A stretch of 64,000 nucleotides of DNA from Skeletonema tropicum (lineage: Eukaryota; Bacillariophyta; Thalassiosirophyceae; Thalassiosirales; Thalassiosiraceae). Location: positions 1,426,001-1,490,000 of the forward strand of contig CM074142.1 of the NCBI GenBank assembly GCA_037178625.1, in the 5' to 3' direction. Every line of letters begins with the position of its first letter. Position 1 is the first letter of the stretch. Position numbers and translations under genes: made by a program. Of this stretch, positions 5,111 to 57,806 are shown piece by piece. The notes under the pieces are model-generated. The model was not told the DNA's origin. It ran no database searches and worked only from the letters and a program-made list of their open reading frames with translations.

Positions 5111-5383
5111 AATAGATATTCATTTTCAAGAACAGTTCCGCTACATCATGTATCTGTACAATATGTATGTCTAAGCCGTCGTGCACCAACCTACATGAAA
5201 ATATGTAGATCAATTTCTCAGGATTCTTGGTGAATAATCATGATAAAATCGACAATCCGATAATACGTAAATCGGACGAAGACAAACCCCAACCTTCAAA
5301 CTCAAACGATCAAAACGGTGAATCTCTTCCTCTTCCGAGAAAAACTGACAGTCACCGTCCACTCCAGTTTCAAGATGCGCAGC

Positions 5384-6004: not shown

Positions 6005-6073
6005 CTTGACCAGAATGTTGTTGATGTTTTTTTTGATTGTGTCTTCCAAGTGTTAGTGTTTGTGTACCTATTT

Positions 6074-20285: not shown

Positions 20286-21544
20286 TTACTTCTCTCTAAG
20301 CTTGTGGGCGAATACAGCAGCTTCGAAGTCCCCAGAGCTAGAATCAGAGTCATACTCATACTCCTGTTCGTCTTCATCAAAGGACAACTGATCACCACCA
20401 GCATCTTCCTCGTCCCCTTCTCTTTGGCAACGTCCTGTGATGAGTAATTTCATAAGGAAACGGGTTTTTAAAGGTACGTTAGAGTTAGAGTTACATGCTA
20501 TTTAAGAAGGGCATATATGCGAAGCTCCCATGGAGAGAACAGATTCAATAGAAAGGCCTTACCTCCAGCACAATGGCAGTGGCTTTTGCATCCAGACATA
20601 TTGCAACTTCCTGTGGCATGAGATTTTATAAGGAAGAGTTTAAAGGTACGTTAGAGTCGCATGCTATTTAAGAAGAGCATATGCGAAGCTCCCGTGGAGA
20701 GAACAGATTCAATAGAAAGGCCTTACCTCCAGCACAATGGCAGTGTTCTTTGCATCCAGACATATTGCAACTTCCTGTGACGTGAGATTAGAAGGAAGAG
20801 TTTAAAGGTAAGGTTAGAGTCACATGTTATTTTAGGTGGGCATGCATAAATAAATAAATGGCGATCTGTAGTGTTACCCTATCCAATATATTGCCAATTA
20901 TTGCTTCTCAGCCGCCACGGGGGTAAACTACCATGTAAAGGTGCTTAAAATGCTGCTCTCGGTGAGCTGAGTTCGAATCTGTGTTGTATCTAATTTTTTA
21001 TAAAAATAATTTGTTAGCCCCACTTCTAGCTTGCCTTAAGGGTTAACCCCCCAAAGGTCCCCTTATCCAGTTTCCTTGGGTCTTTGGTTCCATAGCACAA
21101 ATTCATCGCACCATGATTCGAAACTACCTCGGATACACCCCGGATTTGAACTCAGCTCACTGAGAGGATTTCAGAACTGTGCTCACCTTCATCATAGCAC
21201 CAATATTCGCTGAGAAGCAACCTGCTGGATAGGCTAACACTACAGATCGCCAAATAAATAAATAAATACAAAGTTAACCACCTTAAAAGCTTTCGTTTCC
21301 GTGGAGAGAACAGATTCAATAGAAAGGCCTTACCTCCAGCACAATGGCAGTGTTCTTTGCATCCAGACATATTGCCTCCTGTGACGTGAAATTATAAGGA
21401 AGAGTTTAAAGGTACGTTAGAGTCACATGCTATTCAAGAAGGTCATGCGAAGCTTCCGTTCAGAGAACAGATTCAATTTCAATGGAGAAGCCTTACCTCC
21501 AGTACTATGGCAGTTGGTTGTGCATTTAGGCAGTTGGCATTTAT
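20286..21544 (-). pseudogene. Cysteine-repeat gene copy 1, 3' part (five exons)
   Basis: Minus-strand exons at 21497-21544, 21334-21378, 20727-20774, 20563-20610 and 20286-20434. The first and the next three each encode one repeat (DKCQLPKCTTNCHSTG, GGNMSGCKEHCHCAG, SCNMSGCKEHCHCAG, SCNMSGCKSHCHCAG). The last encodes the acidic tail RCQREGDEEDAGGDQL onwards. All introns are GT-AG and phase 1. Oddities: the exon at 21497 has lost the last cysteine of CxC (now CHS), and the exon at 21334 has a 3-bp deletion removing its first cysteine. One extra base near the end shifts the conserved FAQA terminus into a short KLREK extension. The gene's first two exons lie 6.8 kb upstream at 28361-28893, cut off by nested transposons. 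These relaxed cysteines and the insertion argue for a decaying copy. Confidence 0.75.
20859..21252. mobile_element. Fold-back element inside an intron
   Basis: Inverted arms start tggcgatctgtagtgtta on both sides and flank a short centre. The element is bounded by the AT-rich direct repeat aataaataaa on each side. It lies in the intron between exons 21334-21378 and 20727-20774 of the minus-strand cysteine-repeat gene. One arm contains gagttcgaatctg, resembling a tRNA-type B box. Related half copies are at 57652-57806, and a diverged relative has its two halves at 21680-21848 and 28138-28360. Confidence 0.7.
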
Positions 21545-21848
21545 CTGGTGGAATCAGAGAGGAAAGGGAAAGGGACTTTAAAGGTAAGTAGAGTCGCGCA
21601 TGCAAATGCTATTTAATAAGGATAAGGGCATGTGAAGCTTCCGTGGAGAGAACAAATTCAATATAAAGGCCTTACCACAGGCTAAGTCTATGGTCAGCCT
21701 AGCCAGAAAACGGCGATTTGTCCGTTCTCAGCCGTTACGGGACTAACGGGCCATGTAAGGGTGTTAAAATGCTCCTCTCGGTGAGCTGCATTTGAATCCG
21801 TGAAGATCTAAGAAAAATAAAAAAATATTTTGTTAGCCCTACCCCTAG

Positions 21849-22941
21849 CGTAATGGAATTTCACCATTTTTGGAGGGGGTTGAAAATTGCAGGTTGAAAT
21901 TTCAGAAATTTCAGAAATTTCAAGGGATTAAATTTCACTCTAGCTTATCCTGAGATAGTCGTAATACTTTGCACTCTGCAGTCAACACATCACTCTAAGA
22001 GAGACTGTCAGCAAGCTTCTTTCCAAGCATCTTCTTCGCATCCATGATATGACGGAGGTTTTCCTTCCCTGAATAGAGCGTTGAGTCTCGTTGCTTTTTG
22101 GCATCCGGAGCTGCTGCAAAAGGCACAGCAGCAGGTGGTGCTGCGGGTGGATCGACTGCAGCGACGGCAGGTGGATCGACAGCAGCGACGGCAGCATCGG
22201 CAGTTGGGGCCGCAGCGGTGAGCTTGTGTTGGACACAGTGAAGACACATGAGAGCGGTATGGGAGTTGGCAAGTGTTTTTGCATGATCATTAAGATCCCC
22301 TGCAGGGTTTTTGTAGGATGGGTTGCCCACAATTTCCTCACAGTAGAGTTTACCGCAAAGGGCACCATGAATTGGTCCTTCACACATCATGCACTGATGA
22401 TCAGCCGGGTTGTTGAGGGGGGAGTTCTTCATGCCACAAAGGGCGTTGGCGGCGCATGTCAAAAGCATTATTGTTGAAGATTATTGAATTGTTGTTGTTA
22501 TTGCCAGGCAAACTATGACAGCGTGGTAGACGGCAGAGTGAACAAAAAGTTGATTTGTGCACATACCCGCACCCAAAATAAGAGCCATCCGCGCCCAAAA
22601 TCATCTGGTACATGCCAATGCAGGAACACGCATGTAAGCTGAATTACTACGAAGGAATAAGTAATACTGCATTGTTAGTCGCCAGCATTTTGGTGAAGAG
22701 TTACTCTCCGCTGAGTTGACAAACTCATCATCTGGATGGTGCGTGGTGTTCTTTGGGGTTTGGTGGTTGGTGGAATGAAGGGTCTTAGGTTATTTTTGTG
22801 CTACGTGTTGGTTCAGTACCATCCGTTCGCGCCAGAATTTTTGTGAAATTTCATTGTTGGCCAAAATTGGTGCAACTTTCACCCTGTAAATTTCACGAAA
22901 GTTGCAGTAGTGAAATTTCACCCTTTTGAAATTCCATTACG
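21849..22941. mobile_element. 1.1 kb element with 15-bp perfect TIRs
   Basis: Ends cgtaatggaatttca (21849-21863) and its exact inverse (22927-22941). It sits inside the fold-back element, whose sequence cctacccctag is present both at 21838-21848 and at 28127-28137. That repeat is a candidate 9-11-bp target duplication once the later transposon (22949-28122) is removed. The interior carries more aaatttca-type inverted motifs near each end and one minus-strand frame (21995-22468). Superfamily uncertain; a Mutator-like duplication length is suggestive only. Confidence 0.6.
21995..22468 (-). CDS. Small cysteine-rich (zinc-ribbon-like) protein inside a transposon
   Basis: A 157-residue frame from the ATG at 22468. 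The N-terminal half has paired cysteines (CMMCEGPIHGALCGKLYC, later CLHC) that could form a treble-clef or zinc-ribbon site. The middle has an Ala/Pro/Val-rich repeat (AAVDPPAVAAVDPPA), and the C-terminal part is basic and helical (DAKKMLGKKLADSL). I do not recognise the family. It nearly fills the 1.1 kb TIR element, so it may be an element protein (DNA binding) rather than a host gene. No catalytic transposase residues are visible in this length. Similar CxxC modules in diatoms often occur with unknown transposase-associated proteins, which is inference. Confidence 0.45.
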   Translation of the reverse strand: MLLTCAANALCGMKNSPLNNPADHQCMMCEGPIHGALCGKLYCEEIVGNPSYKNPAGDLNDHAKTLANSHTALMCLHCVQHKLTAAAPTADAAVAAVDPPAVAAVDPPAAPPAAVPFAAAPDAKKQRDSTLYSGKENLRHIMDAKKMLGKKLADSLS

Positions 22942-23209
22942 CTACCTAAGGAGGGGTGGCCTCGTACGTAGAACCATACTAATTCCGCTAAGTAACCAAG
23001 TTGTCAGCCACGAGACATCGGACAGTTACTCCTGTAACCATTTTTGCTAATAGTGTGGCAGCCACGAGACATCTGAGAGTTACACATGTAACGATTTGGC
23101 TGACAAGTTTCCCGAGCCACCACCACCGACCATCAAATAAAAATAATAGTGTCCATGAGAGAGAGATTCACCATGGAACATTAAATAGACAACATAGATC
23201 ATCAACAAT

Positions 23210-26200
23210 ATGTCGTCAAACAAAATGAAGTATGATGAATGGGCTGACAAGCAGCGTAAAGAGAGAGGGGACACAGTAGAAGTAGGCTCGAAACGATTGA
23301 GGAAGGTAAATCCAAAATATGTCGACAACCAAAAAAGTCACAGCAACACCTCCATTGCCCAAAACAACATCAATAATGAAATTGAGTCGAATGCTGTTTC
23401 GTCCAAAGAGGTACAGGCGGAGCGACATGGGGAGAATGGGTCGTCCCCTGCAACGCAGCGTCTTGTCAAAACATCTACTATGAATAATATTAATGACACA
23501 ACTTCCGTCAATAATGCACCCTCCGAATCTCTGCCGTCTACCTCCAGATCTACCTCCCCCCTTCTCGTCAATGATCCACCTGCCCCCCCAGCAACAGTGA
23601 TTGCCGCCGCTGAAAGTCAACCAACAGAATCTGCCGTATCTTCCCTCCATCCTCCTGGTGTTCCCGAAAAAAAATCCGACATGGCGGCAGCGGACGGCAA
23701 CAAGTCTGATGTACCTCTTACTAAGTCTAACAAAAAGGAGGATGGCATTGGCATTGGCAACATCACTAAATCCAAAGAACGGACAATCACGCTGAAAAAT
23801 GTTGATGCCACTGACACAACACCCCCTCCGTCATGGCCCGATAAAATTGCATGCAGAGAAGATATCCGCAGAATCGATGAAAATGGCGAATGGATTGAAT
23901 GTGCTCTTTGTCTTGGCACTGGACGGACAAACGGCATCATTTCTATGAAACCAAAATTCAATGTTTATAATTGGAGTGGGCCGGGTGGTCACTTGACCAC
24001 CCAAGGACACTTGAATCATGTGGCAGCTCGTGAAGGTGAAAAGAGAGAGAACAAGAAAAGGGGCAAGAAGAACAAGACACAGACTGGTAGTTCGATGACG
24101 AAGTTTTATCCAATACAGAAGAAGAAGAAACCAGAGGTCAAACCTCGCAATTCAACCACAGACATAATTGATGTGGAGGCTGCTGGTGTCTTGGATTCTG
24201 CGTAAGTTGCTCATGCTATTTTGTGTGTACTATTTCAACGCATCTGTAGTTAATGATTTGTTGTTTGTTGTCTCTTTTCAGGAAATCAGCATGTGCTGGA
24301 ATATTCAACTCAGTAAATGGGGATAAGACAAGTCATGTCAAACTGTACGCGACTTACGTCAGGCCACTGCCAACGCAGGGATGGATTGTTGGTGTCTACG
24401 CTGGCGCTCCATCAATTGTATCAAGGTCGTGCACTAAGAGGGGAGTCTTTCCGGGTAAAGATGGTGGAATGGTTTGCAATGATTGCAAAACATTAAGGCT
24501 GAAGAAAGGTGGTAGCAATCCAGGCACCTGTTTGAATAAATGGCGTACTACTCTCTCGAGGGCTCTTGAACTGAGACGAAGGTCTAATCTTTCCGTCATC
24601 GACATGGAAGATGCCATCAAGTTCACTAAAATTAGTGATACACAGTTCAACTCCTGGGGACTCCAGCTCCTGCAAGAGACAAAGAATCTTGTTGACTACT
24701 ACAACTACATGTGCTCGTTACGAAGCAAGACTGCCCCCCGCAGTGATCAATTGACGTTTGAGTACGTTCCTCCAGACTCTGTCCCCGGTGTTGATGACTT
24801 ATTCAAAAATGCTGCAGAGCTGTACAAAAAGAAGCCAGCCTTTCGAAACTCTATCATTGTTGCTCTGATGAAAGCTGCCGTTGCAAAGGAAAAGTATGGG
24901 TCCAATGCAGCCACAGAAGAAATTGTTGTCAACTTCTTTCGCTTCATTAACACATATGATCCAACCGCCGCGCAAGTGGTCTCTGCAAACCTTGGGGGGC
25001 CATGTACCCGCTGGATGAAGAAGTTGAATGCCAAAGAAAGGGAGCCGTGTATTTGTGATTCTGGTGAGAAAGATGCACTAGTTGTTAAGAGGATTGTTGA
25101 TGCAATCAAGAGACGTCTTTCACCGGATGAGAAAATTGGAAGCAATAGGGGTGAGTCCTTTTCTCTTGCGATTGATGCGACAAAGGTTGCAACGGTCGTG
25201 GAAGTGAGCTATGGGTATGGTGCTATTTTGGGAGGGGAATATCCACAGCACATCATTCCTATCGTAGGGATGTCAAAAGATGATGTGAAAGCAATGTTGG
25301 ATAGTGATAAAATTCCGAAAGCCACCGAAGTGAAGGTTTGTGTTCTGACGTTCCAGAATGCTCCCAAAGGAGTGGCGAAATCAGAAATTGTTGCTGCACG
25401 GCCGCAATCAAATAATGAATCGAATGAGTTTGTCAAGGCAATGGAGGTTGCGACAGCATCTGGTCTGAATTCCTTGGGCATTCCCTCTCGTCATTTTCTG
25501 AACTTTACTGTTGATGGCGTATCTTGTGAGAGCAGGCACGTGTGGCTTGCTATTTGTGAGTTCCTCTCCTGCAAACAAAACCACACTGGCGCCACAGATG
25601 CCAAGCATAACTGCAAGTCTTGGCGTCATCAAGTTACTGCTGGTGGCGATGTAGTTTGCGCTACAATGGGCAAGTTTACCATTGATGCTGGTCTTCTTAA
25701 ACTGGGCAACGTCTCCATGGAGTTACTTCGACCGCCCGACTTTGCATCCGATCATCTTGTCCTGAAGCTTTACTCTGATGATAGCATTCGCAAGATCTTT
25801 ATGGCTGAACCGCGGTTTGGATCAACATGTGATGGAGATAAAGTTGTATTGGCTATGACACTCTTCTTCCTTCGCCTGCATCTCCATGCACTTGACGGTG
25901 AAATTCCTGCGCTACATCGAGCTCAGTACTTGTGGTGTTCTATGATATGGCTTACAACAATTAATGGTGTATCTATGATCACGAAACGAAATGTTGTAGT
26001 AGAGGTTATCTCATTAATGTTTCTTGTGTTGAGAGATGATGTCCCCAAGCCGAGGTTCACCACAAGTGAAGCCGCTGAGCATATGTTCGGGCAACTTCGT
26101 CAAATGATTCGAGAGTTCACTGTGTTGGAATTTGCGCAGCTTGCTGAAAAATTAAACCGCCGCATGAAGCAAATGTACAAGCACCTCTTCCGACCATCCC

Positions 26201-27300
26201 GAGACCCACAGAAGGGATACCAAGCCACGTGGAAAAACTTCTTTGAGGCAACTCTAGCGCCCAGTGATGATACGATGATGAGGGGGACTGTTATTATTTC
26301 GGATGATGGTGATTATGTTGCGCAGCAGATGTGGGAAACTGTGTCGAAAATTATTACATTCTCATCCAAATACATGAGGAAGTTGTTTGATGTACTTGGT
26401 GTATTAAACAATGAAATATCACCCTTCTGTAGATCATTCTCTTCCCGTATTGATCTGAGAGATGAACTAATCCGCTACCTTCCCCGCACATTTACTTACG
26501 AAGATGTTCAGGGGAATGCTGACAATTCGGCTGGAGCGATGCAAGATGACGACAATGATGAAGGTAAGGATGATTTTGCTGAGCTGATAGAAGATCGCAT
26601 TAAGCGCTTCGGTGAAGAAATGACGAAGGCTAATGACAGTGGGAAGAAGGGAAAGGATGATAATGATATTATTGTACTGGGGGGTGATGATGAATTGACA
26701 GCTGAGGATCAAACGCCCTTCACTTCTACAATCGCAGGTTCAAAGAGCCACGCAGAAAAGTTGATGTCGAGCTTCCGCAGTATGATTGTTTCCACTTCAA
26801 TAGAAGAGTTGCAGGATTGTGTACTGACTGCAAGTGCAAGCCTTGCTTGCACAGAACATGTTATGGGTTCTACAAGCAAAGAAAGGAAAGTGAAATCATT
26901 GGTGCAGCGTTGGATAGCTTCTCCGCCCGAACGTATTAAATCAAATGAAGATGGTGAAGTAGTTGCTGAGGATATTCTCATCGAGAGGGATGTTGTTATT
27001 ATTGCAAACGTGAAGATTGGAAATGGAGCAAACGCTACTACGGTGCAACGACCATTTCGTGTCATGGTGATTCATGATAAACATTACAACAAGTGGATGA
27101 TAAGTCAATCGTCTAGTAAGAAGTGGGGGAAAGAAGCAAAGCCATACAAGGTAGACATTCGAATGCTCCGGAAGAATGAAGTTGGTGAGTATGAAGATGT
27201 CGAATTATATGATGCAGATTACAACGAGGAAGAGGTTGCAAAGCGTATTGGAGAGAATTTGATTCTCGATGTAGTTGGAAAGTTGCATGTAATTGGTTGA
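23210..27300 (+). CDS. Transposase, hAT/P-type RNase-H fold candidate, two exons
   Basis: Exon 1 is 23210-24201 and exon 2 24282-27300, joined by a GTAAGT...TTTCAG intron of 80 bp that keeps frame, for 1336 residues. Exon 1 encodes a Ser/Thr/Pro-rich region and near its end a zinc-finger-like module (ECALCLG followed about 30 residues later by GGHLTTQGHLNHV), similar to BED fingers. Exon 2 contains candidate acidic catalytic positions: an Asp in SLAIDATKV (codon at 25174), an Asp in DAKHNCKSWRHQ (25597) and a Glu in SEAAEHMFGQLRQM (26068). The spacing and the EHMFGQLR block recall the P/THAP9 ENxFGxIR motif and hAT-like folds. The tail has an acidic linker and an IAGSKSHAEKL region. The frame is uninterrupted, so recent activity is plausible. 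No similar named family can be confirmed here. Confidence 0.7.
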
Positions 27301-27320
27301 GTTCATTAATAATGGGGTTA

Positions 27321-27955
27321 CAGTCGTCGTACGGTTATTTTGACACACGCTTATTTTGACATTACAGTTATTTTGACACAGCAGCAGAGAACACTACCTT
27401 CTCTTATCGCTGGCTTCCCCGCTTCTCCCGAGGAGGGAGAAGAGGCAGCTCAGCCACACAAACCACCATGACCATGACCATGACATATCAAAGATTCGTC
27501 CGAGACACCATTGCTGCTTGCAGAGGCAGCATTAGACGCAATCAAGAAACTCCGTGAGAATGAGAATGCGGGTTCAGAGGAGGACGACGAGAATGACGAC
27601 GAGGATGATGATGCAGATGCACGGTACAATATCTTCTTCAATTCATTTGGTCATCTACGCTCTCGTAACGTCGAATTGATTATGGTCTTAAACAGCAAAT
27701 CTGATGAATTGGTGAAAGATTTATCGTTGACTCTGGAACAACTGAAATTGACGTGGGAGCATGAAGACTTCTAAATATGTAAGCAACCTTGCTTTGTCTC
27801 CTCCTTTGTCTGAAACCTATGTACATACCTATGTACTGGTATTTAAGCTTATGTACCGATGCCTATTTACTTGCTACACGGATGTTTTGACAAGTACGGT
27901 TATTTTGACACGCTGAGCCAGAACACAGTGTGTCAAAATAACTGTACGACGACTG
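27321..27955. mobile_element. pogo/mariner-like element nested in the transposon
   Basis: Inverted ends cagtcgtcgtac followed by gttattttgacacac (27321-27349, inverse at 27928-27955; one mismatch), flanked by TA at 27319-27320 and 27956-27957. Several tattttgacac copies lie just inside the ends. The CAGT start and TA duplication suggest the Tc1/mariner-pogo group. It contains one acidic plus-strand frame (27511-27774, no ATG at its start), possibly the tail of a lost transposase. It sits 20 bp after the stop of the transposase gene. Confidence 0.75.
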
Positions 27956-28360
27956 TATTTCATGTTAGACTTTTCGTAGAGGTTCAGCCTCCCTACCCAT
28001 GTAACCCGATGTTACAGATCCTAGTACAAGTTTACGTAGGAATTAAATTCCTACGTCATCAGCGAGGAAGCCAGCAGTTACACATGTAACGATTTCGCGG
28101 ACAGGTTGAGGCCACCCCTCCTGCTACCTACCCCTAGAAAAAACTAAGGGTTAACCCCCAAAATAGTCCCTCTTTCCAATTTCCCTGGGTCTTCAGGCTG
28201 GAATCATTTTTTGTTTTCACCACGATTCAAAACCTTGCTTAGATCTCTACGGATTTGAACTCCTCTCACTCTCAGCTTTCCGACACTATGTTGACCATTT
28301 TCTGAGGTTGAGTACTCGCTGAGAAGAGACATCCTGGCTAGGGTGACCATAGACTTAGCC

Positions 28361-28893
28361 CACATGAGCAACTGGATGTGCACTTAGGCATTGCGCAATT
28401 TCCTGTTGGACACTGGCAATTGGATGTGCACTCAGGCATTTTGCAATTTTCTGTCATGCGAAATAAGCAAGGACAAGGAGTTCGAAGAGAAGGAGCATTA
28501 TTTAGAGATGAGGAACGTAGGAGTAAGAAATACAGAAAAGTAAAATGAAACTGAGTGCATTTGTCAGTGAAATTCCTTACCTCCCCTAGGGCATTCACAG
28601 TTGGATGTGCAAGTGGACAAATCTCTCGAGCTCGAGCCCGAGCCCGAGCCGATATTCCCGTCCCAGGGCCAGCCGCTGCCGCCGCCCGAGCCGCTATTCC
28701 CGCCCCAGGGCCAGCCGCTGCCGCTGTTCCCGCCCCACCAACCCGAGTCTTCTCCTTCGTCTTCGTTCAGGAACGATCCGCGAAGAGTTTGGGGGGTGGT
28801 GGATGATGACTCATCGCCGTCGCTGCTAGCGTAGACGCCCGGCGTAGTTGCCAACATGGCAAAGGCAGTAAGTTTGAGGAAGATGCACTTCAT
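28361..28893 (-). pseudogene. Cysteine-repeat gene copy 1, 5' part (signal peptide and two exons)
   Basis: Exon 1 (28581-28893) starts at the ATG at 28893 and encodes a signal peptide (MKCIFLKLTAFAMLATTPG), an acidic stretch with LRGSFLNEDEGEDSG, then an expanded Gly/Ser/Trp segment (GWPWGGNSGSG type) and the first cysteine unit. Exon 2 (28361-28450) encodes two fused repeats (ENCKMPECTSNCQCPT, GNCAMPKCTSSCSC), apparently after loss of the intron between them. At 28360 the fold-back insertion begins, so the native splice donor is now 6.7 kb away. The five remaining exons lie at 20286-21544. The upstream region to about 29060 matches the promoters of the copies at 48 and 56 kb. Expression of a truncated protein is possible but unproven. 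Confidence 0.8.
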
Positions 28894-44556: not shown

Positions 44557-45702
44557 ATGTTGCCACAAGCTACCATTATCACTGTTGTGGACACCAAAGA
44601 TGGCAGCAGCCCTCCTCCTTCGAGTGGGTTGGACTTGCTTTTTGCCGCCGCCTCACAACGCCAACAACCCAAGACGCCAGGCCGTGCCGTGACCGACTGC
44701 GGGAGCACGATTAGTTCTCTCTCCTCTGAAGTCGACGTACCCCAAACTCCACCTCCTACGAAGACATTCTTTCCCGAGGTACTCATGGAAATGTTGAATA
44801 ACAATCAATGCTTTGGCCACATTTTCTCTTGGAAGCCCGATGGCAAATCGTTTGTCATCAAGAGCAGGCATGAGTTCAAAGAGAAGGTCCTGCCATTGTA
44901 TTTCAAGTCCAATTTCGACAGCTTCCTCCGAAAGCTGAAGAGGTGGGGCTTCGAGAAAGACAAGGTCAATCGTCGAGGCGATCCATCAATCGAATTCTCC
45001 CACAGGTACTTCCGTCGAGATGAGAGCGGCTTGTGTCTACGCATGCGCTGCAAGTCTGGACCAGGTAGGATGGCCGACGACAGTTGTAATATTCAAGAAG
45101 ATCCTCAAGAAGTCATGAGATCTTCACAAGTCATGAGAACATCACCTGCACATGAAGATGCCATGCGTCACAAGGTTGCGTTGGTTGATCAATTGATGAA
45201 TCAACAGGCCATCCAGAACCGTCTCCTCGAAGAAATCAACCAAGCTGCAATCGCAGAAAAAATGGCTGCATTAAATGCTGGTAGACGTGACCGCACTTAT
45301 GATCAATCTTTGATCACTGATCGGCTACGGGATATTAATCAAGCGCAACTTCTGATGAAGAAGCAGATGATTGTTGCCGCAAAGAAGGCACAATTGTCTG
45401 ATAGATTGTCCGAGTACATGGCAGCCCCGCATCTTGAGCAGGAAAGAACTATGAATGAGACCCATCAAGGCTACCAACACCTCTCTCAATTACAATTACA
45501 AAGACTTGGTCAGATCTTGGATGTCAATGCTCTCAATGACGATGCCATTGCAAGATATTATCGCCCCATGTCAGGAAGTCTCCGAACACAGCACAGCCGA
45601 GAAGCCCTGCGTGCGTCTATTCTCGCTAAGAGACAAGAGCTTGGCCTTTCTCAACCTCAGCAGACAAATTTGCGCATGCCATTTGCCCCTTCTCAATTTT
45701 GA
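44557..45702 (+). CDS. Heat-shock-factor-type transcription factor
   Basis: A 381-residue protein from the ATG at 44557 (the frame extends upstream only from a TTG). An HSF DNA-binding domain spans about residues 67-170: KTFFPEVLMEMLNNNQ, then IFSWKPDGKSFVIKS, then VLPLYFKSNFDSFLRKLKRWGF with the recognition helix, then HRYFRRD. This is the HSF winged helix that recognises nGAAn repeats. The C-terminal half is Gln/Met/Leu-rich with helices (LVDQLMNQQAIQNRLLEEI), perhaps for oligomerisation. Diatoms carry a strongly expanded HSF family, so the target genes of this member cannot be guessed. Single exon; same strand as the B9D1 gene 256 bp downstream. Confidence 0.9.
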   Translation: MLPQATIITVVDTKDGSSPPPSSGLDLLFAAASQRQQPKTPGRAVTDCGSTISSLSSEVDVPQTPPPTKTFFPEVLMEMLNNNQCFGHIFSWKPDGKSFVIKSRHEFKEKVLPLYFKSNFDSFLRKLKRWGFEKDKVNRRGDPSIEFSHRYFRRDESGLCLRMRCKSGPGRMADDSCNIQEDPQEVMRSSQVMRTSPAHEDAMRHKVALVDQLMNQQAIQNRLLEEINQAAIAEKMAALNAGRRDRTYDQSLITDRLRDINQAQLLMKKQMIVAAKKAQLSDRLSEYMAAPHLEQERTMNETHQGYQHLSQLQLQRLGQILDVNALNDDAIARYYRPMSGSLRTQHSREALRASILAKRQELGLSQPQQTNLRMPFAPSQF

Positions 45703-48597: not shown

Positions 48598-49849
48598 ATG
48601 AAGTGCATCTTCCTCAAACTTACTGCCTTTGCCATGTTGGCAACTGCGTCGGGCGTCTACGCTAGCAGCCACGGCGATGAGTCATCATCTACCACCCGCC
48701 AGACTCTTCGCGGATCGCTCCTGAACGAAGACGAAGGAGAGGACTCGGGTTGGTGGCCCTGGAACCGGAACCGGAACCCCGGCGCGAGTGACTTGTCCAT
48801 TTGCACGTCCCACTGTCATTGTTCTCAAGGTAAGGAATTTCACTGGAATAGCACACAGTTTCATTTTAGTCTTCTGTTCCTCTTACTCTTATGTCCTACG
48901 TTCATCCTCTCTAAATAATAATAATGCTCCTTCTCTTCTAACTCCTTGCCCTTGCTTATTTCGCATCACAGGAGATTGCGACATGCCTAAGTGCATATCC
49001 GATTGCCAATGTCCTGGAGGTAAGGCTTCTTTTCATGAAACTTTTCTTTCACATTCACTGCTCATGATAATAGTAATAGTAGTATGTTATTAAACTTTCT
49101 CCTTCCTTGGAACTCCTTATTCTTGTCATAATTGCATAACAGGAGATTGCGACATGCCTAGATGCAGAAGCAACTGCCAATGTTCCAAGGGTACGGCTCT
49201 TCTTTTGAAGCTTTGTGTGCGTGTGCCACATTTTATGTCGTGAGACTCTAACCTTCTCTTTCCTTGGAACTCCTTATCCTCATCATTTTCGCACAACAGG
49301 AGATTGCGACATGCCTAAGTGCAAGTCCAATTGCCAATGCCCTGGAGGTAAGGCTCTTCTTTTGAAGCTCTTCTCTACAAATTATACTTTGTGTGCGTTT
49401 GCCCGTCATCATTTGTCGTGAGACTCTAACCTTCTCCTTCCTTGGAACTCCTTACCCTTGTCATTTTCGCATAACAGGAGATTGCGACATGCCTAGCTGC
49501 TCAAGCAACTGCCAATGTTCCTCGGGTAAGGCTTTCTATTAGATTTGCTCTCTCCATAGAAACAGAAAATGATGTTGTGTGCCTATCTTATGTATGGAAT
49601 GTGTAGCCTCTAACATCTCTTGGAACTCCTTGTGCTTGCTAATTTTACATCACAGGAGATTGCAATATGTCTGGATGCACAAGCATCTGCCAATGTGCTG
49701 CAGGTAATTGCCAAAGAAGAGGTGACGAGGAAGGTGACTCCTTCGATCAGTTGCCCTTTGATGGAGATGAAGAGGAGTATGATTATGGGGACTTTGATCG
49801 CGATGAAGATAAAGAGTTGGACGAAGCTGTTGCATTCGCCCAAGCTTAG
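48598..49849 (+). CDS. Secreted cysteine-repeat protein with 48-nt cassette exons, copy 2
   Basis: Six exons: 48598-48829, 48972-49019, 49143-49190, 49300-49347, 49478-49525 and 49656-49849, all GT-AG, phase 1, total 205 residues. Exon 1 gives a signal peptide (MKCIFLKLTAFAMLATASG), an acidic linker (LRGSLLNEDEGEDSGWW) and a first CxxxCxC unit. Exons 2-5 are exactly 48 nt and each encode one 16-residue repeat (GDCDMPKCISDCQCPG, GDCDMPRCRSNCQCSK, GDCDMPKCKSNCQCPG, GDCDMPSCSSNCQCSS). The last exon fuses a repeat (GDCNMSGCTSICQCAA) to an acidic tail (DQLPFDGDEEEYDYGD) ending FAQA. The fusion arose by deletion of the intron seen in copy 3. No known domain is recognised. A secreted disulfide-rich or metal-binding protein is inferred. 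The exon 3 donor is GTACGG, others mostly GTAAGG. Confidence 0.8.
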
Positions 49850-50029
49850 AGAGAAGTGAGGTTTCTGTCGATGCAGCACAGGTGTTGTAATGCACCACCA
49901 CCCACGATTCAAAGTGGGATGACGGACAGACGGGTCACGCATCATCATCATCCTTCTCATTCTTTTTTTAGAGGGGCAAAATCGACCTGCACCATGGGAT
50001 TATTGCCGTAGTAATGATACTACACACCT

Positions 50030-50123
50030 TTAATTCACCCCTCATGTGGACCCCTCTTTATATGTTCCTCTTCACACTCTATTGAATCACATATCAAGAG
50101 GGGTCCACATGAGGGGTAAATTA
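50030..50123. repeat. Short palindromic MITE-like unit
   Basis: Arms ttacccctcatgtgg-type: the left arm has cacccctcatgtggacccct, mirrored by aggggtccacatgaggggt on the right, with a 35-bp loop. The same palindrome is present in the sister element near 59235-59335. It is therefore part of the element, not a later insertion. Confidence 0.7.
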
Positions 50124-51329
50124 GATAGTGATTTATGGAACCATTAAGATGAGAGCTGCCACTTGCATAGGACCCTCATGCCCACCTTATCCTTATAAAT
50201 AACAATCTGTTGTGAGTGAACACATGTCAAATAGCCCATATTCTGCTTCTATCTTACTTTATAAAACGTTTGACTACCCAATAAGTCTGTGGTTCTTAGT
50301 ATTTATGCCAAAGGGGGGTATAAGCGGGGCAAAAGTCTACGTAAAAATTGCCAATTCGCAATGATACAGGAGTCTCCTGACATTGTACCAGATTCCACCC
50401 CCGTCAACTTCTGTCTAGCTCATCCTGCATCCAGCTATTATCACGGTTCATCCACATTATCGGCGAAAAGTCAGTGTATCCCCACTGTATAGCGATCAGC
50501 ATCCCAAAGTATTAGCTCCACTTAGAACTTGTATTGTTGCGTGATCCGGTCTCTATCCAACAATATCTGTGATACCGATCAATCCTCTGTGCTATCAGTT
50601 GCATATTAGCATTATAGAAGCGAAGGGGATGAAATAAATGATATTTGGATCATGTCATCGCATTGTAACACCGTCGTATTAAACGATATCAATATTCGAT
50701 GACCCGTCGGTGGTGCATGTCGAACCTAGTGGAGTGTATTCAGAGTTGTCGATCCGGAAGATCAGTCAAGACGACTCCGTTATACTCTTGATGAGGTTGC
50801 CGTCGATGAATGGTGTTTGTATGACTTCACTATCACTATATCCCCGATCATCGGGACCGGCGACACGATGATACGCCGATAAAAAGGCCGCTGCCAGGGA
50901 CTGTATATTATGCACCTATCTCATAATCCAATGTAACCATGTTGTCAATTTATATTTCAAAGACATAATAGAAGAGATATTCCTCGAAGTAAAGAGGCGA
51001 TGTCGTCGAAGTGGCGATGATTTTGATAGGGCGAAGTGACGGCTATCATCGTGGTGAACTACTAGCTTTTGTATGTGGGGCTTCATTTAGGTTATTTTTG
51101 GGTGGAGGTGGAATAATCAGGTCACTCCGTGAAGCGCCCCCGGAGGGACGGTTGGCACGCCAAAGTAGTTTGTTGGTACGTGTAAAACAGAGAAGTGAGA
51201 GCAAATAGGAAAGAAGGTCAAATGTAAGAGTGGATTAATTTGTCCAAGCATACAAGCATAGTAGTTCATGTACATGTATATGTATATTGATTATACATTA
51301 GTGTTACTAGTTTTCATTATTTGATGTGA

Positions 51330-51997
51330 GGCCATTGTACCAGTCAAGAAGAAATTCACAGCCACCTTGGTAAGTCCTATCTTCTGCGTTTGGGTTGGGA
51401 TCTACTGCAGCAATCCTCTCCTCTATTAGTTTTTTTGATGTTGCTGCTCTGACTCTAATATCTTCAAGGTATGCCTTCGGGTTGCATATGCATCTGTGGT
51501 CCCAATTTTCATGAGCACCTGCCTTGACAGCTCACTAGCAGGTTTGTTACCAATTGCAAGACAGCTCAAATCTTACACCCTGGATGTGGCTACAAGCTCT
51601 AACCCAGGTGTAGACCTTTTTCCTTTATTGCCTGTTGGTGTACAGTTAGACACTGAAATTCCTTGCCAGGCCCTACAGTCATTCCCTGACTCTTGTGGAT
51701 GGACAGGGCCTTGCAGCACCTGAGTGGGAGCGCTCGAACACTGCAACACTTCCTTTCACATCTCACCTCCACCATTGGTATAGGGATGCAGGTACGCGGA
51801 AGATCAGGAAAGAACTTGTCCGCTTCTGGTATATCTGAGTCAGGGAAGTCAACTATTGCATACTGAATTTTGTTATCTTCACCATCACCATGAGCGCATG
51901 GGCCATCTCTTGTCTTGTATCCATGATTAGGCACTGTAGCATCGCTTCTACGTACGTCAGACGTCTGAGCAGCGCTAATGTGGTTGCATACTATCAC
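51330..51997 (-). pseudogene. PIF1-type helicase C-terminal remnant
   Basis: The minus-strand frame at 51599-51997 ends with the PIF1/RecD-like motif V block, ALPLRCCKALSIHKSQGMTV (typical PIF1: LPLxLAWAxTIHKSQGxT). It then breaks by a one-base shift near 51610. In the next frame GLELVATSRV and SCLAIGN follow, corresponding to motif VI (GxxYVALSRVxSxxxLxxxx), with one stop inside. Helitron transposases and cellular PIF1 both contain this region, and only the C-terminal end is present here. No rolling-circle Rep domain is visible. Dead fragment carried within the 4 kb element. Confidence 0.7.
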
Positions 51998-52779
51998 CGC
52001 CGACTATAATGGGCCACTAGAAGCGGCTCATAAGCGAACTGACGACGATAGGTACGATTTGGTTCAATGAGGTGCTGCTGGCCAGCCCACACTGGACCTC
52101 TCATATCAGCTACGAGACTGTAGCATCGCTTCTACGTACAACAAATGTCTATGCAGCGCTAATGTGGTTGCATACTATCACCGCCGACTATAATGGGCCA
52201 CTAGAAGCGGCTCATAAGCGAACTGGCGACGATAGGTACGATTTGGTTTAATGAGGTGCTGCTGGCCAGACCACACTGGACCTCTCATATCAGCTACGAG
52301 ACTGTAGCATCGCTTCTACGTACGTCAGACGTCTGAGCAGCGCTAATGTGGTTGCATACTATCACCGCCGACTATAATGGGCCACTAGAAGCGGCTCATA
52401 AGCGAACTGACGACGATAGGTACGATTTGGTTCAATGAGGTGCTGCTGGCCAGCCCACACTGGACCTCTCACATCAGCTACATGACTGTAGCATCGCTTC
52501 TACGTACGTCAGACGTCTGAGCAGCACTAATGTGGTTGCATACTATCACCGCCGACTATAATGGGCCACTAGGAGCGGCTCATAAGCGAACTGACGACGA
52601 TAGGTTCGATTTGGTTCAATGAGGTGCTGCTGGTGCTGGCCAGCCCACACTGGACCTCTCATATCAGCTACGAGACTGTAGCATCGCTTCTACGTACGTC
52701 AGACGTCTGAGCAGCACTAATGTGGTTGCATACTATCACTGCCGACTATAATGGGCCACTAGAAGCGGCTCATAAGCGA
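51933..52779. repeat. Tandem array, 184-bp unit, about 4.6 copies
   Basis: Units start actgtagcatcgcttctacg at 51933, 52117, 52301, 52485 and 52675. Spacing is 184, 184, 184 and 190 bp, the last unit having a 6-bp extra tggtgc. Copies differ at a few positions only. The array ends at 52779 where the second array begins. No palindromic spacing or spacer diversity, so it is not a CRISPR array. Confidence 0.9.
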
Positions 52780-53370
52780 CGTGTAATCAATGATAATCAC
52801 AGTTCCTGCGAAGCCCTCACAAAATACACTTGTCGTAATGCTGCGCCGTCAATGATTGGTTGGCACGATGTAAGATCCCAAAAAGCGATCGCTGAGGAGG
52901 GTGTAATCCTGACAGTTGGCACGACGTATAATCAATGATAATCACAGTTCCTGCGAAGCCCTCACAAAATACACTTGCCGTAATGCTGCGCCGTCAATGA
53001 TTGGTTGGCACGATGTAAGATCCCAAAAAGCGACCGCTGAGGAGGGTGTAATTCAGACAGTTGGCATGACGTGTAATCAATGATAATCACAGTTCGGGCG
53101 AAGCCCTCACAAAATACACTTCTCGTAATGCTGCGCCGTCTATGATTGGTTGGCACGATGTAAGATCCCAAAAAGCGACCGCTGAGGAGGGTGTAATCCA
53201 GACAGTTGGCACGACGTGTAATCAATGATAATCACAGTTCGGGCGAAGCCCTCACAAAATACACTTGGCGTAATGCTGCGCCGTCAATGATTGGTTGGCA
53301 CGATGTAAGATCCCAAAAATCGACCGCTGAGGAGGGTGTAATCCAGACAGTTGGCACGACGTGTAATCAT
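52780..53370. repeat. Tandem array, 145-bp unit, 4 copies
   Basis: The phrase taatcaatgataatcacag recurs at 52784, 52929, 53074 and 53219, with a partial fifth at 53364, an exact period of 145 bp. Open frames on both strands in this area are artefacts of the repeat. The array follows the 184-bp array without a gap. Confidence 0.9.
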
Positions 53371-53966
53371 TTCTCGTTGAAGTTTGCCTCCGACAAAGAG
53401 ACACACCTCTCAAAAGCAACACAAAACTTGCTGCCAACCCGCGCAGCTTGCGCGCAACCTCCCTACCATGGTAGGTAAGAGCAAAAGTACATAAGTACAA
53501 GCTAACCATGCCCTCTTTAGGGCATCAGATGGACTTTATCGACTATCCAACTATCGGGTGAGGTGGTCGGTAGTATGGAAAGCTTCAAGTTTATATTATC
53601 TCTACAGTCTCTCGGGGATTCTAATTTATCTTGATTTTGTTCTTCCAGATGGGAGTCTTTCTGTCAATTTTGATCCAGGCTTGGGTAATAGCATTAACCC
53701 CCATTAACCCTACATGCCCACACCCACGTGAAAAAGGGCCCCCTCCGGGGGCAAAAATCTTTCCTCATTTTCTGTCTGACCGCGTTTTAATGTTAAGTAG
53801 GAATTCGCTATCTTTAGTTCCTACGTACCCCATGTAAGGACCTTGTCAAATTTCCACATTTTGGGGGATGGTGAATGGTATATTGATGAGAATGAGAGTA
53901 GACTTTCGCTTGAATTTGATTCTTAGGGTTTCGAGTTAGAGTTGGTAGTGGTAGCATCATAGGCTA

Positions 53967-54446
53967 CTGTACGGCTGGGTTCAAATGAGCACTTTGAACT
54001 CTAGATTAGGAGTCAGACAATGAATGAGGTATCAATGAGATCCTATGGACCTACAGGATGAGATTTCTGTTTGGTATGGGCCCGTAAGTCCAGTAGTTGT
54101 GGTGTTATTGGCGGCCGTAGGAGAGGCTATTTCGCCATGGTTTAGCTCTTTTGAGTGATGATTGTCTCGTAAAACTCACCGATACGTGGGAATTAATATG
54201 ATTTTGGTCCGGCACTCGATATGTCCATTAAATTTCTAAAAAAGAGATTTCTACCAAATGTATCAATATTATTGGGGGACCACTCAGCTCATTCAAAATC
54301 ACATAAAATTGCACTTTTTAATTTTCTATGACATGCTACTAGTTATGGCCCGTGTCATGCAAAAAAAAGCAGGAAAATATTCCAACGAGAACATAAAAAA
54401 TAGTGGTCCCCCAGTTCAAAGTGCTCATTTGAACCCAGCCGTACAG
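53967..54446. mobile_element. 480-bp MITE with 34-bp perfect TIRs, TA duplication
   Basis: Ends ctgtacggctgggttcaaat... at 53967-54000 and exact inverse at 54413-54446, flanked by TA (53965-53966, 54447-54448). Perfect identity of the ends suggests recent insertion. It interrupts the displaced 3' flank of cysteine-repeat gene copy 2. An inner ggggaccac/gtggtcccc pair adds symmetry. Tc1/mariner-type by TSD. Confidence 0.85.
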
Positions 54447-54473
54447 TAATCTAAATAATGAGAGGAGCTAAGT

Positions 54474-54562
54474 CGTTCGTTCTGTCGTTCTGTCGTTCTG
54501 TCGGTCGGTCGGTCGGTCGGTCGTTCTGTCGTTCTGTCGTTCTGTCGTTCTGTCGTTCTGTC
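54474..54562. repeat. tcgttctg/tcgg microsatellite
   Basis: Alternating tcgttctg and tcgg units. They generate Arg/Thr/Asp frames on the minus strand that are not genes. Confidence 0.85.
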
Positions 54563-54596
54563 CGGGCCCTTTGGCGTGTCCTTTGGCCTTCACGGG

Positions 54597-54890
54597 CATT
54601 TTCGATCGACTCTTTCTTTGATTGGCTTGATTTGACCCCTTGCCCCCCCCCGTTTTTAGAGTTTTCGATTGACTCTTTCTTTGATTGCCTTAGATTTGAA
54701 TGTTCAGGGGGGGACACCCCCCCTTTCCCCCCCGTGTTTAGAATTTTCGATTGACTCTTTCTTTGATTGGCTTAGATTTGGTTGTTCAGGGGGGACACCC
54801 CCCCTTGCCCCCCGTGTTTAGAATTTTCGATTGACTCTTTCTTTGATTGGCTTAGATTTGATTGTTCAGGGGGGGACACACGGAAGAGGC
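54597..54890. repeat. Tandem repeat, about 80-90 bp unit, 3-4 copies
   Basis: Units carry ttttcgattgactctttctt, then gattggcttagattt, gttcaggggggg, acacccccc and a c-run. Length varies because of the homopolymer g and c tracts. The G and C runs could pair with each other. Confidence 0.8.
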
Positions 54891-55053
54891 AAATGGACCT
54901 ACTCTTCAAGATTTGATCAATCCCCGACCATGGTGGGCACATGTTATGTAATTAATGCAATCTAAACAGCAAAGAAAATCTCTTTATTCGCCTCTTATCT
55001 GCTAGCTTCGTAACACGATCCCCCCCCCTACGAACAACAACATTACTGACATC

Positions 55054-55665
55054 TCAACCCCCCGCTTTCTCCTCCCCTGCATTGCAACTAAGGTATGGGT
55101 TGTGTGACAAACACTCTTTCAACACAGGCACTGTCGCATAAGTGCGAACAGGAAACTTGGTATTGTCATGCACAACAGCAATACGAAGAAGCCTCTCCTC
55201 AGCTCCTTGAGAATTGTATTTTTTCAATCTCAGCAGCTCCGCATCATTTTCAAAATCTGGAAAAAATACTGAAATTTCTGCGCCCAAAATCTTAGACATG
55301 CAATCAAAGTCTAACTCCTCTGCAATCCTTTCGTTATTCTCCAGCTTCTCCACATATTCAATAAAACTCATTGTGCCACCATGTTTCCCAACCCTAAATA
55401 ATGAAGAACGTTCCAAATCCACAGCATTCTCCTTCTCATAATTAATTAATAATCCCTTCAAATCTTCTATTGACATGTACGAACCGTACAACGCCAAATG
55501 ATTCGATACAGCATTCAAAAATCCGTCTTGCCCGTAATTGATCCATAAAACCTCATGCCCATGCTCGAACAGGGTCCGCAAGAACGGAACAGGAAGAGAA
55601 ATTTTCTCCGAATTATCAACGAATTGCCTCCTCTCTTTCGTCACAACACCAGTTACAGAACTCAT
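55054..55665 (-). CDS. OTU-like protein lacking the catalytic cysteine (tentative)
   Basis: A 203-residue frame from the ATG at 55665. Near residue 45 it reads INYGQDGFLNAVSNHL, resembling the OTU deubiquitinase box DGNCLFRAVSxxL but without the N-C pair that supplies the nucleophile. Downstream, FIEYVEKLENNERIAEELDF then ILGAEISVFFPDF resemble the OTU W-G...EL-A...LxxxIxVF segment, and AVVHDNTKFPVRTYATVP could be the C-terminal strand region. If correct it is a pseudoenzyme or a diverged member. No other domain visible. Single exon, isolated between repeats, so it could also be a captured or decaying gene. Assignment rests on motif resemblance only. Confidence 0.4.
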   Translation of the reverse strand: MSSVTGVVTKERRQFVDNSEKISLPVPFLRTLFEHGHEVLWINYGQDGFLNAVSNHLALYGSYMSIEDLKGLLINYEKENAVDLERSSLFRVGKHGGTMSFIEYVEKLENNERIAEELDFDCMSKILGAEISVFFPDFENDAELLRLKKYNSQGAEERLLRIAVVHDNTKFPVRTYATVPVLKECLSHNPYLSCNAGEEKAGG

Positions 55666-56073
55666 CCTTTTCAAGCTTACTAATATTTCGTCACATCACT
55701 ATCTACTAGGATAGTATTGCAAGTTTCATATATACCTTAGGGAAGCTGCCTCACTCTTTCAATGACGAATCTGATATCACAACAAACACCCATCAAGATT
55801 CGGGGAAGAAGGAAGGAGACCCAAAAAACGAAATAAAATCAATTTTCAATTCGTACTATTTGAATACTGCTATGTATATAAGTAGACACAATCAATATCG
55901 TAGTAGATAGCCGGTGCCTCCTCTCTTATTTAGAAAACCCGCGCAGCGGCTAGACGAGCGTCAGCGAGGCTAGTATAAACAAATAACTGATTTCATACAC
56001 GCGTTTAGCAAGAGAATTGATAGCACAGGATAGCACACGACACACGACCGTCAAATTCCACGAACTAACCCCC

Positions 56074-56208
56074 CGGGGGTTAAGAATTTTGCTTGCCTGA
56101 GATTTGAGGACTTATCCCCCCTCTTACGATAGTAATTATATTTGCTAAATGAATGAGGGAGTATGAATATTTTAGGCTACCTAGGATGATATGTTGGGGT
56201 GGGGGGAA
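56074..56208. repeat. Short interspersed element upstream of copy 3
   Basis: Matches the reverse complement of 19607-19757 (shared ttccacgaa, cctgagatttgaggactta, tagtaattat). It ends directly where promoter similarity among the cysteine-repeat copies begins (gacacagaacacgcg), so it marks the breakpoint of the duplicated segment or inserted there. Confidence 0.5.
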
Positions 56209-56365
56209 AGCGACACAGAACACGCGTCCTCATTCATTCTTTTCAAAACACACACGGTGACCAAAACTATCTGTTCTCGCAAAGATCTCTCCAATCCAGA
56301 ATACATCTCATATCTCATAGACAGCAACAGCAATCATTTCAACTACCATTACCTCCTCCATCAAC

Positions 56366-57386
56366 ATGAAGTGCATCTTCCTCAAACTTACTGCCTTTGC
56401 CATGTTGGCAACTGCGTCGGGCGTCTACGCTAGCAGCGACGGCGATGAGTCATCATCTACCACCCGCCAGACTCTTCGCGGATCGTTCCTGAACGAAGAC
56501 GAAGGAGAGGACTCGGGTTGGTGGGGCTGGCGCCGGAACCGTAACGCCGGCTCGACTGACTTGTCCATTTGCTCATCCGCCTGTAACTGTTGGTGGGGTA
56601 AGGCATTTCTCTTTTCGCTGGTATTGTTCTCAGTCTCAGTTTTCAGTTACATTTCTCCTCTCTAACGCACTTCTCCCTCTTCATTGTCTTGAAACAACTT
56701 GGCTTTGCAAACTTCGTATTGCAGGAGGTTGTTCAATGCCTCAGTGCACATCCAATTGCCAATGTTCTGGAGGTGAGGATTTTCTATTTAAGCTCTTCTC
56801 TCCTTATTATTCCTAACTCTGTTAAATGCCCATAGTAGTGTGTAATCTCTAATCTAAATATTCTCTTCAAATAATTACTTGTCCATTCTGATTTCTTCAC
56901 CAGGACGTTGCAATATGCCTAAATGCAGAAGCAACTGCCAATGTGCTGGAGGTAAGGCTTTTCTATTGAATCTGTTCTCTCCACGGAAACTTCGAATGCC
57001 CTTTTTAAAGTGACTCTTAACTTAATTAAACTCCCTTTCCTTGCTAATTTCGCATCGCAGGAGGTTGCAATATGTCTGGATGCAGAAGCAACTGCCAATG
57101 CGCTCTCGGTAAGGCTTTTCTACTGAATCTGTTCTCTCCACGGAAGCTTCACATGCCCTTGCATGTGGTTCTAACCATATCTTTAAACTCCTTTCCTTAT
57201 AAATTTCACCTCGCAGGAGGTTGCCAAAGGAGAGGTGATGAGGAAGATGCTGGCATCGATCAGTTGCCCTTTGATGGAGATGAAGAGGAGTATGACTCTG
57301 ACTCTGGGGACTTCGAATACAATGAGGATGTGGAGGATGAGGAAGAGTTGGACGAAGACGAAGCTGCTGTATTCGCCCAAGCTTAG
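56366..57386 (+). CDS. Secreted cysteine-repeat protein with 48-nt cassette exons, copy 3
   Basis: Five exons: 56366-56597, 56725-56772, 56904-56951, 57061-57108 and 57217-57386, GT-AG, phase 1, giving 181 residues. Exon 1 is the same length (232 nt) as in copy 2 and encodes the signal peptide MKCIFLKLTAFAMLATASG, the acidic linker and a Trp/Arg segment (GWWGWRRNRNAGSTD). It ends in CSSACNCWW. Exons 2-4 encode the repeats GGCSMPQCTSNCQCSG, GRCNMPKCRSNCQCAG and GGCNMSGCRSNCQCAL. The last exon starts GGCQRRGDEEDAG and ends in an acidic tail (DEEELDEDEAAVFAQA-type). This copy keeps the last intron that copy 2 lost, so it looks the most ancestral. Function unknown; extracellular or cell-wall location inferred from the signal peptide. 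Confidence 0.8.
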
Positions 57387-57651: not shown

Positions 57652-57806
57652 TGGCGATCTGTAGTGTTAGCCTATCCAGCAGAATAGCTCTTCGAATATT
57701 GGTGCTATGATGAAGGTGAGCACAGTTCTGAAATCCTCTCAGTGAGCTGAGTTTAAATCCGGGGTGCATCTGACTTAGTTTCGAATCATAGTGAAATGAA
57801 TTTGCA
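57652..57806. repeat. Single arm of the fold-back element
   Basis: Starts tggcgatctgtagtgttag and matches the reverse complement of 21098-21252. Only one arm is present, so it is a solo half of the fold-back family found in and around copy 1. Confidence 0.7.

Follow-up and report, generated by a model that had tools for sequence, protein, structure and literature searches.

Extracellular modules of animal proteins prefer introns of phase 1 on both sides (class 1-1). Frame-safe skipping of such symmetrical modules is a known principle, as set out in one account (PMC6335736), and arrays of uniform exons have been described in the ciliate Tetrahymena, where thousands of leucine-rich repeat (LRR) genes carry arrays of exons that are each exactly 90 bp long, with introns of phase 2, unequal crossing over being offered as the explanation of their shuffling (PMC6564038). 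The present analysis concerns a gene family in a stretch of 64,000 nucleotides (nt) from the diatom Skeletonema tropicum (GenBank assembly GCA_037178625.1, contig CM074142.1, positions 1,426,001 to 1,490,000; hereafter, the window), which lies on a contig of 2.2 Mb, here called C16. We put at roughly two in three the probability that this family encodes secreted proteins made of a 16-residue repeat with four Cys, most repeats standing alone on a predicted 48-nt exon of phase 1, and that recombination between copies has multiplied, removed, and fused these units and overwritten parts of them, with exon skipping as a possible second source of length variants.

As in the Tetrahymena LRR genes, one exact exon length and one intron phase go together with an exon number that varies among close paralogues, and here too a repeat protein of a unicellular eukaryote shows ectopic exchange with mobile elements nearby; the scrambled exons of the ciliate are attributed there to unequal crossing over, and the diatom family appears to be alike in this. 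It differs in that its exons measure 48 and not 90 nt, the introns are of phase 1 and not 2, the module is a Cys-rich unit of 16 residues with no LRR match over the Pfam cut-off, the repeat unit is apparently laced across the exon junction, and the exons number in the tens on one contig, whereas those described for Tetrahymena run to tens of thousands. With the class 1-1 modules of animals the family shares the same phase on both sides, so that an exon can be skipped or copied safely in frame, but the unit comes from a diatom, matches no Pfam domain, and with its 16 residues likely amounts to one rung and not to a whole domain. Frustulins, which have an affinity for calcium, and pleuralins are likewise extracellular diatom proteins with Cys-rich repeats (PMC4557024); both were rejected as identities of the family on their description and not by sequence comparison, the module having 16 residues as opposed to the ACR domain of about 50 in frustulins and the 90-residue PSCD repeat of pleuralins. 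The type of exon array is itself already known, and the diatom family is unnamed. The initial annotation had already held that there was no named family, and indeed nothing exceeded the Pfam cut-off or was found among the sequences of the PDB, and a literature search returned no title or start of an abstract naming the family, although subscription papers are thinly covered there and this is no proof of absence.

Gene models on contig C16

Three copies of one design had been proposed for the window. This stands for copies 1 and 3, while copy 2 lies on the minus strand, elsewhere than had been indicated, and is broken by an insert, so that the window holds two intact copies. In their spliced models, both of these show the expected start, the acidic and Trp-containing linker, the repeats, and an acidic tail with a FAQA end, and their standard repeat exon indeed measures 48 nt, with phase-1 introns and GT-AG borders on both sides; the introns are 108-142 nt long, and the codon split by the phase-1 introns of the repeat exons is mostly that of Gly. 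Copy 1 (48598-49849, plus strand) gives a spliced frame of 618 nt, or 205 amino acids (aa), with zero internal stops. Its exon 1 (48598..48829; 77-aa translation) comprises a signal-peptide-like start, a conserved TLRGS-acidic stretch, the Trp linker, and a half unit with three Cys, and is followed by the 48-nt repeat exons R1 (48972..49019, phase 1-1, GDCDMPKCISDCQCPG), R2 (49143..49190), R3 (49300..49347), and R4 (49478..49525), and by a last exon of 194 nt (49656..49849), in which R5 is fused without an intron to the acidic FAQA tail. Its repeats, taken before to be about six, are five by count, the supposed sixth unit being made up of the three Cys that close exon 1 and the one Cys that opens the tail. 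Copy 3 (56366-57386, plus strand; spliced frame of 546 nt, 181 aa, zero internal stops) has three full repeats, as had been counted, and consists of exon 1 (56366..56597), the 48-nt exons R1 (56725..56772), R2 (56904..56951), and R3 (57061..57108), and a tail exon of 170 nt (57217..57386), with an intron between the last repeat and the tail.

The whole genome of 78.4 Mb in 125 contigs was searched for further members. A DNA search with copy 1 yielded 30 matches, every one of them on C16, and the 30-nt start sequence of the genes has ten exact occurrences, again all on C16; a start-like sequence with two mismatches on contig C3 was discarded, as no open frame follows it, and a pattern match on C2 and protein matches on C11 and C8 (E 0.5, 0.85) were taken as chance. 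Sorted by hand, the C16 family comes to 13 loci, to which one distant relative on contig C4 is added. The C16 loci are four short genes (copies 1 and 3, g1622, and g2085), five long genes (l1614, l1617, l1620, l1771, and l1774), two interrupted copies (copy 2 and the one at 2084123/2079583, called here the 2079-kb copy), and two remnants with the tail exon only (1608133 and 1766220). In the same genome, a silicon-transporter profile gave nine matches over cut-off on three contigs, which, together with the named relatives of the protein in Skeletonema, marks it as the genome of a diatom.

Ten gene models, with copy 2 excluded and the 2079-kb copy read downstream of its insert, were used for counting. 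All 59 internal exons are divisible by three, and 53 of them measure 48 nt, the others being 156 nt (four), 123 nt (one), and 90 nt (one). GT-AG borders are found in 68 of the 69 introns, which are 99-142 nt long; in g2085, the AG of the last acceptor is lost. The description of the family as having one repeat per exon is accurate for 53 of the 63 repeats, which stand alone on a 48-nt exon, and not for the other ten, of which eight are joined to the tail and two share one exon. The pattern of 48-nt exons is not due to chance, and the design of a repeat per exon is real.

Probable rearrangement of exon-intron units

That symmetrical exons can be gained and lost in frame, as had been predicted, is borne out by the germline copies, which have 3, 5, and 4+4 repeats. 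The last of these numbers belongs to fused genes: in each of the five long genes, one exon (156 or 123 nt) opens in the manner of a tail (GGCQRRG; for l1614, EGCQRRG) and closes in that of an exon 1 (DLSTCTSNCHCSQ), the phases being kept. The introns record a further change, in that intron 1 of l1617 belongs to the class of the short-gene introns 1 (10.1% different from those of g1622 and g2085, and 8.5% from that of the 2079-kb copy), whereas the nearest counterpart of its intron 2 is intron 3 in copy 1 and g2085 (4.9%; intron 4 of copy 1, at 6.8%, aligns with more gaps); from this jump between classes it follows that one or more exon-intron units are absent or added in between. Germline shuffling of exon-intron units is well supported by these comparisons of the copies, and recombination between copies would be the step that adds or drops repeats in frame.

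Introns are also present or absent at the same borders. At the border between the last repeat and the tail, an intron is found in copy 3, copy 2, and the 2079-kb copy and is absent in the other eight models, while the border between repeats 1 and 2 has no intron in copy 2 and the 2079-kb copy, where the two repeats share one exon. One reading of this absence at exact borders is a precise loss through a spliced copy, the alternative being intron gain; if the loss is what took place, it would speak for the predicted junctions.

Copy 2, which reads along the minus strand between 28893 and about 20286, is interrupted within a repeat exon by a transposon-like element of 6,681 bp. Its exon 1 (28581..28893) has a long Trp/Gly linker, and the exon with two repeats and no intron between them (28361..28450) is the one split by the element (21680..28360). 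The remainder of the copy (20286..21679), the coordinates of which were worked out by exon lengths, holds repeat exons at 21544-21497, 21378-21334 (45 nt, with one Cys lost), 20774-20727, and 20610-20563, and a tail exon that starts at 20434 and ends in FAHKLREK in place of FAQA. Altogether, copy 2 has six repeats, two of which have lost a Cys. The element has terminal inverted repeats of 27 nt, matching at 26 of the 27, a TGTG target duplication, and open reading frames for proteins of 1015, 331, and 157 aa, of which the first and the third, the two that were scanned, gave nothing over the Pfam cut-off. The genome contains 34 occurrences of the terminal 17-mer of the element, among them ten inverted pairs that are 0.4-6.7 kb apart. 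A second, short element with inverted ends GGCGATCTGTAGTGTTAGCC lies inside an intron of copy 2 (window 20860-21251), and a part of that sequence was seen by eye just past copy 3 (about 57653-57685). In the two remnants (C16 1608133-1608400 and 1766220-1766500), sequence resembling the promoter region of the family abuts, as judged by eye, the end of the last intron and the tail exon, and the other exons are absent.

The relative on contig C4 was found by patterns of the repeat, being one of the 12 matches of the first pattern and one of the 31 of the second. Its layout consists of a signal-like start, an LRGS-acidic stretch, a three-Cys half unit, three modules, and one closing Cys, and it is judged to be related because it shares the module, this layout, and the Cys count of 4(n+1), here 16, with the C16 genes. 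Its tail is rich in Lys (six within 14 residues), as opposed to the acidic tails of C16. Three of its four introns are at module borders and one lies within the half unit, with the phases 2, 1, 2, and 0, and the internal exons measure 17, 46, and 43 nt; although there is about one module per exon, skipping would shift the frame. Exon symmetry would accordingly be confined to the C16 branch, and the uniform 1-1 phase of C16 is therefore most simply a by-product of the copying of one exon-intron unit. As a protein query, the C4 relative obtained zero matches at E 0.001 among 937 candidates. An insert of 692 bp (positions 5369-6060 of locus L024), with GCCGCT on both flanks, splits the start of the C4 gene from the rest, and part of the same insert, in reverse orientation, was noticed by eye after the tail of the 2079-kb copy (C16 just below 2078455).

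Elsewhere in the window, two tandem arrays with periods of about 184 and about 145 bp (51933-52780 and 52778-53370) lie between copies 1 and 3, most of their full units being 95-97% alike, and the neighboring genes encode proteins with Pfam domains of the heat-shock-factor DNA-binding (44521-45702), Noc2 (40184-42418), and BTB (12455-13774) types.

Relatives, cysteines, and fold

A search of 5.8 billion proteins gave 113 candidates, 13 of which matched at E up to 1. One of these, P0002, comes from the source mmetsp, which we take to be a transcriptome project, and has the same layout as copy 1: 205 aa, five modules, and the FAQA end, with 59% identity over 100% of the query (E 1.4e-58). P0003 (source eukprot, labeled S. 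marinoi) has two modules, P0004 (NCBI, S. marinoi QTG54_008167) one, and P0010 (S. potamos ACHAXM_005622) three, and P0002-P0004 have the same FAQA end as the C16 family. With P0002 and P0004, the family shares a homologous start, the TLRGS/SLRGS-acidic segment, the 16-residue module with four Cys, and the acidic FAQA tail; start, linker, and module are common to the mmetsp protein and the Skeletonema hypothetical proteins QTG54_008167, QTG54_006203, and ACHAXM_005622. In P0008 (S. marinoi QTG54_006203), the exon 1 of the family and one module are followed by some 200 C-terminal residues unrelated to the family, so that different proteins share the module. From P0002, the modules appear to be joined in the RNA of a relative, and the exon layout is likely to be older than the window species.

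The four Cys are all present in 65 of the 69 repeats of eleven loci, the six of copy 2 included. The deficient ones are R1 of g1622 and of g2085 (Cys to Tyr in both, beside an extra Cys in the linker) and two repeats of copy 2; the alignment with four invariant Cys contains 19 distinct repeats chosen out of 35, with the Tyr variants and the degraded repeats of copy 2 omitted, and owes its invariance to this choice. Exon 1 ends in C-x-S-x-C-x-C and the tail starts with G-x-C, and in P0002 two Cys are missing together, the final one of R2 and the initial one of R3. It may be inferred that the final Cys of each repeat forms a disulfide with the initial Cys of the repeat that follows, and such bonds crossing the exon junctions would account for the three-Cys end of exon 1 and the one-Cys start of the tail. 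Lacing of this kind would set the Cys number of a short gene model at 4(n+1), where n is its number of repeats; the mature Cys number in nine models is 16, 24, or 40.

A structure model of P0002, built with four relatives, places strands every 16 residues, with a mean predicted local distance difference test (pLDDT) of 55, values of 62-81 in the repeats, and a predicted template modeling score (pTM) of 0.41, which gives a hint of one beta-solenoid rung per repeat; a model of a 30-residue peptide of copy 2 that spans two repeats was uninformative (pLDDT 60, pTM 0.18). A hydrophobic start and a V-Y-A cleavage-like site, both seen by eye, make secretion of the C16 proteins a reasonable inference. 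The repeats with CNMSGC or CNLSGC contain an N-x-S glycosylation sequon, the sole type of sequon in nine models.

Alternative readings and meaning

Several points weigh against the reading of secreted repeat proteins with recombining exon-intron units. Splicing in S. tropicum is predicted from the DNA of the window species, and the function is a best guess, namely an extracellular scaffold of adjustable length that would be placed on the wall or released. The link to the C4 gene is one of pattern and layout, the protein of copy 1 having found no match to it at E 10. The Cys count of 4(n+1) fails in P0003 (11), P0002 (22), and the S. potamos protein (15), and a strict pairing rule is disfavored by the odd numbers among these; the structure model of P0002 is weak, and fold searches returned no significant match and no solved relative, which does not in itself speak for a new fold. 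When copy 1, g1622, and g2085 are tested in pairs for an excess of raw differences in exons over introns, just one of the three results is clear (p 0.001, 0.13, and 0.07), the excess is gone once differences within 4 nt are merged (p 0.35, 0.82, and 0.54), and 0 of the 384 repeat columns are variable in the five long copies, which are too young for this contrast (introns 3/1081, tail 5/146).

It could be asked whether the family consists of ordinary coding tandem repeats with mis-called introns, which would be compatible with splicing having been predicted from DNA, but this has been largely refuted and is now very improbable, as 36 of the 37 distinct introns of the ten models cause a frameshift or a stop if retained, the same boundaries occur with and without an intron across copies, and the transcriptome-source relative P0002 has the joined product. 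Moreover, in six of the eight nonspliced matches (P0005, P0006, P0007, P0009, P0012, and P0014), the module or the end of exon 1 runs into GK-, which reads as would a GGTAAG-type donor. An isoform ladder, in which one locus would make graded proteins by the skipping of any symmetrical 48-nt exon, had been proposed in the initial annotation and is plausible but unproven; we regard such a ladder, as a main purpose of the design, as rather unlikely. In its favor, P0002, P0003, and P0004, with five, two, and one repeats and identical or near-identical ends, step at module boundaries: the first 72 residues and the last 70 are the same in P0002 and P0004, the difference between the two being 64 residues exactly, and P0003 is without modules 1, 2, and 4. 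Exon skipping is, furthermore, reported for 2,444 of 12,177 Phaeodactylum gene models in one study (PMC5859163). Alleles, paralogues, and missed exons, however, fit these records equally well. P0004 is an NCBI hypothetical protein from a genomic contig, only P0002 having a transcriptome source, and gene predictors can miss 48-nt exons, a miss that the symmetry masks; in the exon 1 part, P0003 has one residue changed and one missing relative to P0002 and therefore stems from another allele, copy, or strain, and P0002 itself may come from another strain or species. In addition, the P0003 form would have an odd number of Cys, and the exons of the C4 relative are asymmetric. More doubtful still is an extended form of the ladder, in which one locus would yield graded secreted rods, each 48-nt exon supplying one disulfide-laced beta-solenoid rung with bonds crossing the junctions, length and surface being tuned by skipping and the rungs shuffled between loci; the five-, two-, and one-repeat Skeletonema records would then be three steps of the ladder.

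With respect to function, a protein of the frustule (the silica wall) is a tentative possibility, suggested by the source in a diatom, the signal-peptide-like start, the Trp/Gly linker, and the very acidic tail, and by the six Lys within 14 residues of the C4 relative, which are like the pentalysine cluster that targets silaffins (PMC9650480, PMC5501833). On the other hand, RXL is found in none of nine C16 models, which have at most three Lys per 14 residues, so that the silaffin/cingulin type was rejected for them, and no known wall family was matched in the searched libraries; P0008 and P0010 each have one RXL motif. Metallothionein was likewise rejected, the Metallothio_5 profile scoring 6.9 bits (E 9.6) versus a cut-off of 25. 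The sexually induced SIG proteins were considered as well, though not by sequence comparison, and were not adopted. A diversifying recognition or defense protein of the kind of toxins, defensins, or gamete proteins, with loops pressed to vary on a constant Cys scaffold, appears unlikely. Among copy 1, g1622, and g2085, variation affects 2 of 60 Cys-codon sites, in one case silently, versus 27 of 180 other repeat sites (p 0.020), the variable sites fall on codon positions 1, 2, and 3 in the numbers 9, 13, and 7, and g1622 and g2085 differ at 2 of 232 sites in exon 1 and 17 of 240 in the repeats. Against this, copy 1 differs from g1622 or g2085 at 13 of 226 sites of exon 1, no less than in the introns, the nonsynonymous rate (dN) is below the synonymous rate (dS) in all three pairs, the repeats of the five long copies are invariant, and no defense or toxin family exceeded the Pfam cut-off.

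The divergence of the repeat exons speaks to the same question. These 48-nt exons are 11.8% different as compared to 4.4% for their introns, the exon exceeding the intron in 43 of 51 comparisons, which are non-independent, are restricted to 48-nt repeats and to introns at most 7% different, and have l1617 stand for the five long genes; by columns, 29/240 are variable in the repeats of copy 1, g1622, and g2085 versus 38/618 in the introns (p 0.0065). Positive selection was dropped as the cause, because the contrast vanishes after neighboring differences are merged, and its ongoing action is unsupported, as the event-merged exon rates do not differ from those of introns and only one raw test is clear. 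Since merging removes the excess, the repeat exons change in blocks, which would fit short gene conversions; in nt 16-35 of R2, g1622 has 7 differences from R2 of g2085 and 1 from R3 of copy 1, R3 of g2085, and R1 of l1617.

Under the reading of recombining exon-intron units, the family would be a second protist case, beside the ciliate, of a repeat protein that rearranges by units defined by its exon borders, and the unit in the diatom is small, at 48 nt. S. marinoi has members of the family together with public genomes and RNA-seq, in which the ladder predicts junction reads that differ by multiples of 48 nt. Should the ladder hold, splicing would give a diatom a means, more familiar from animals, of changing how long a surface or secreted protein is.

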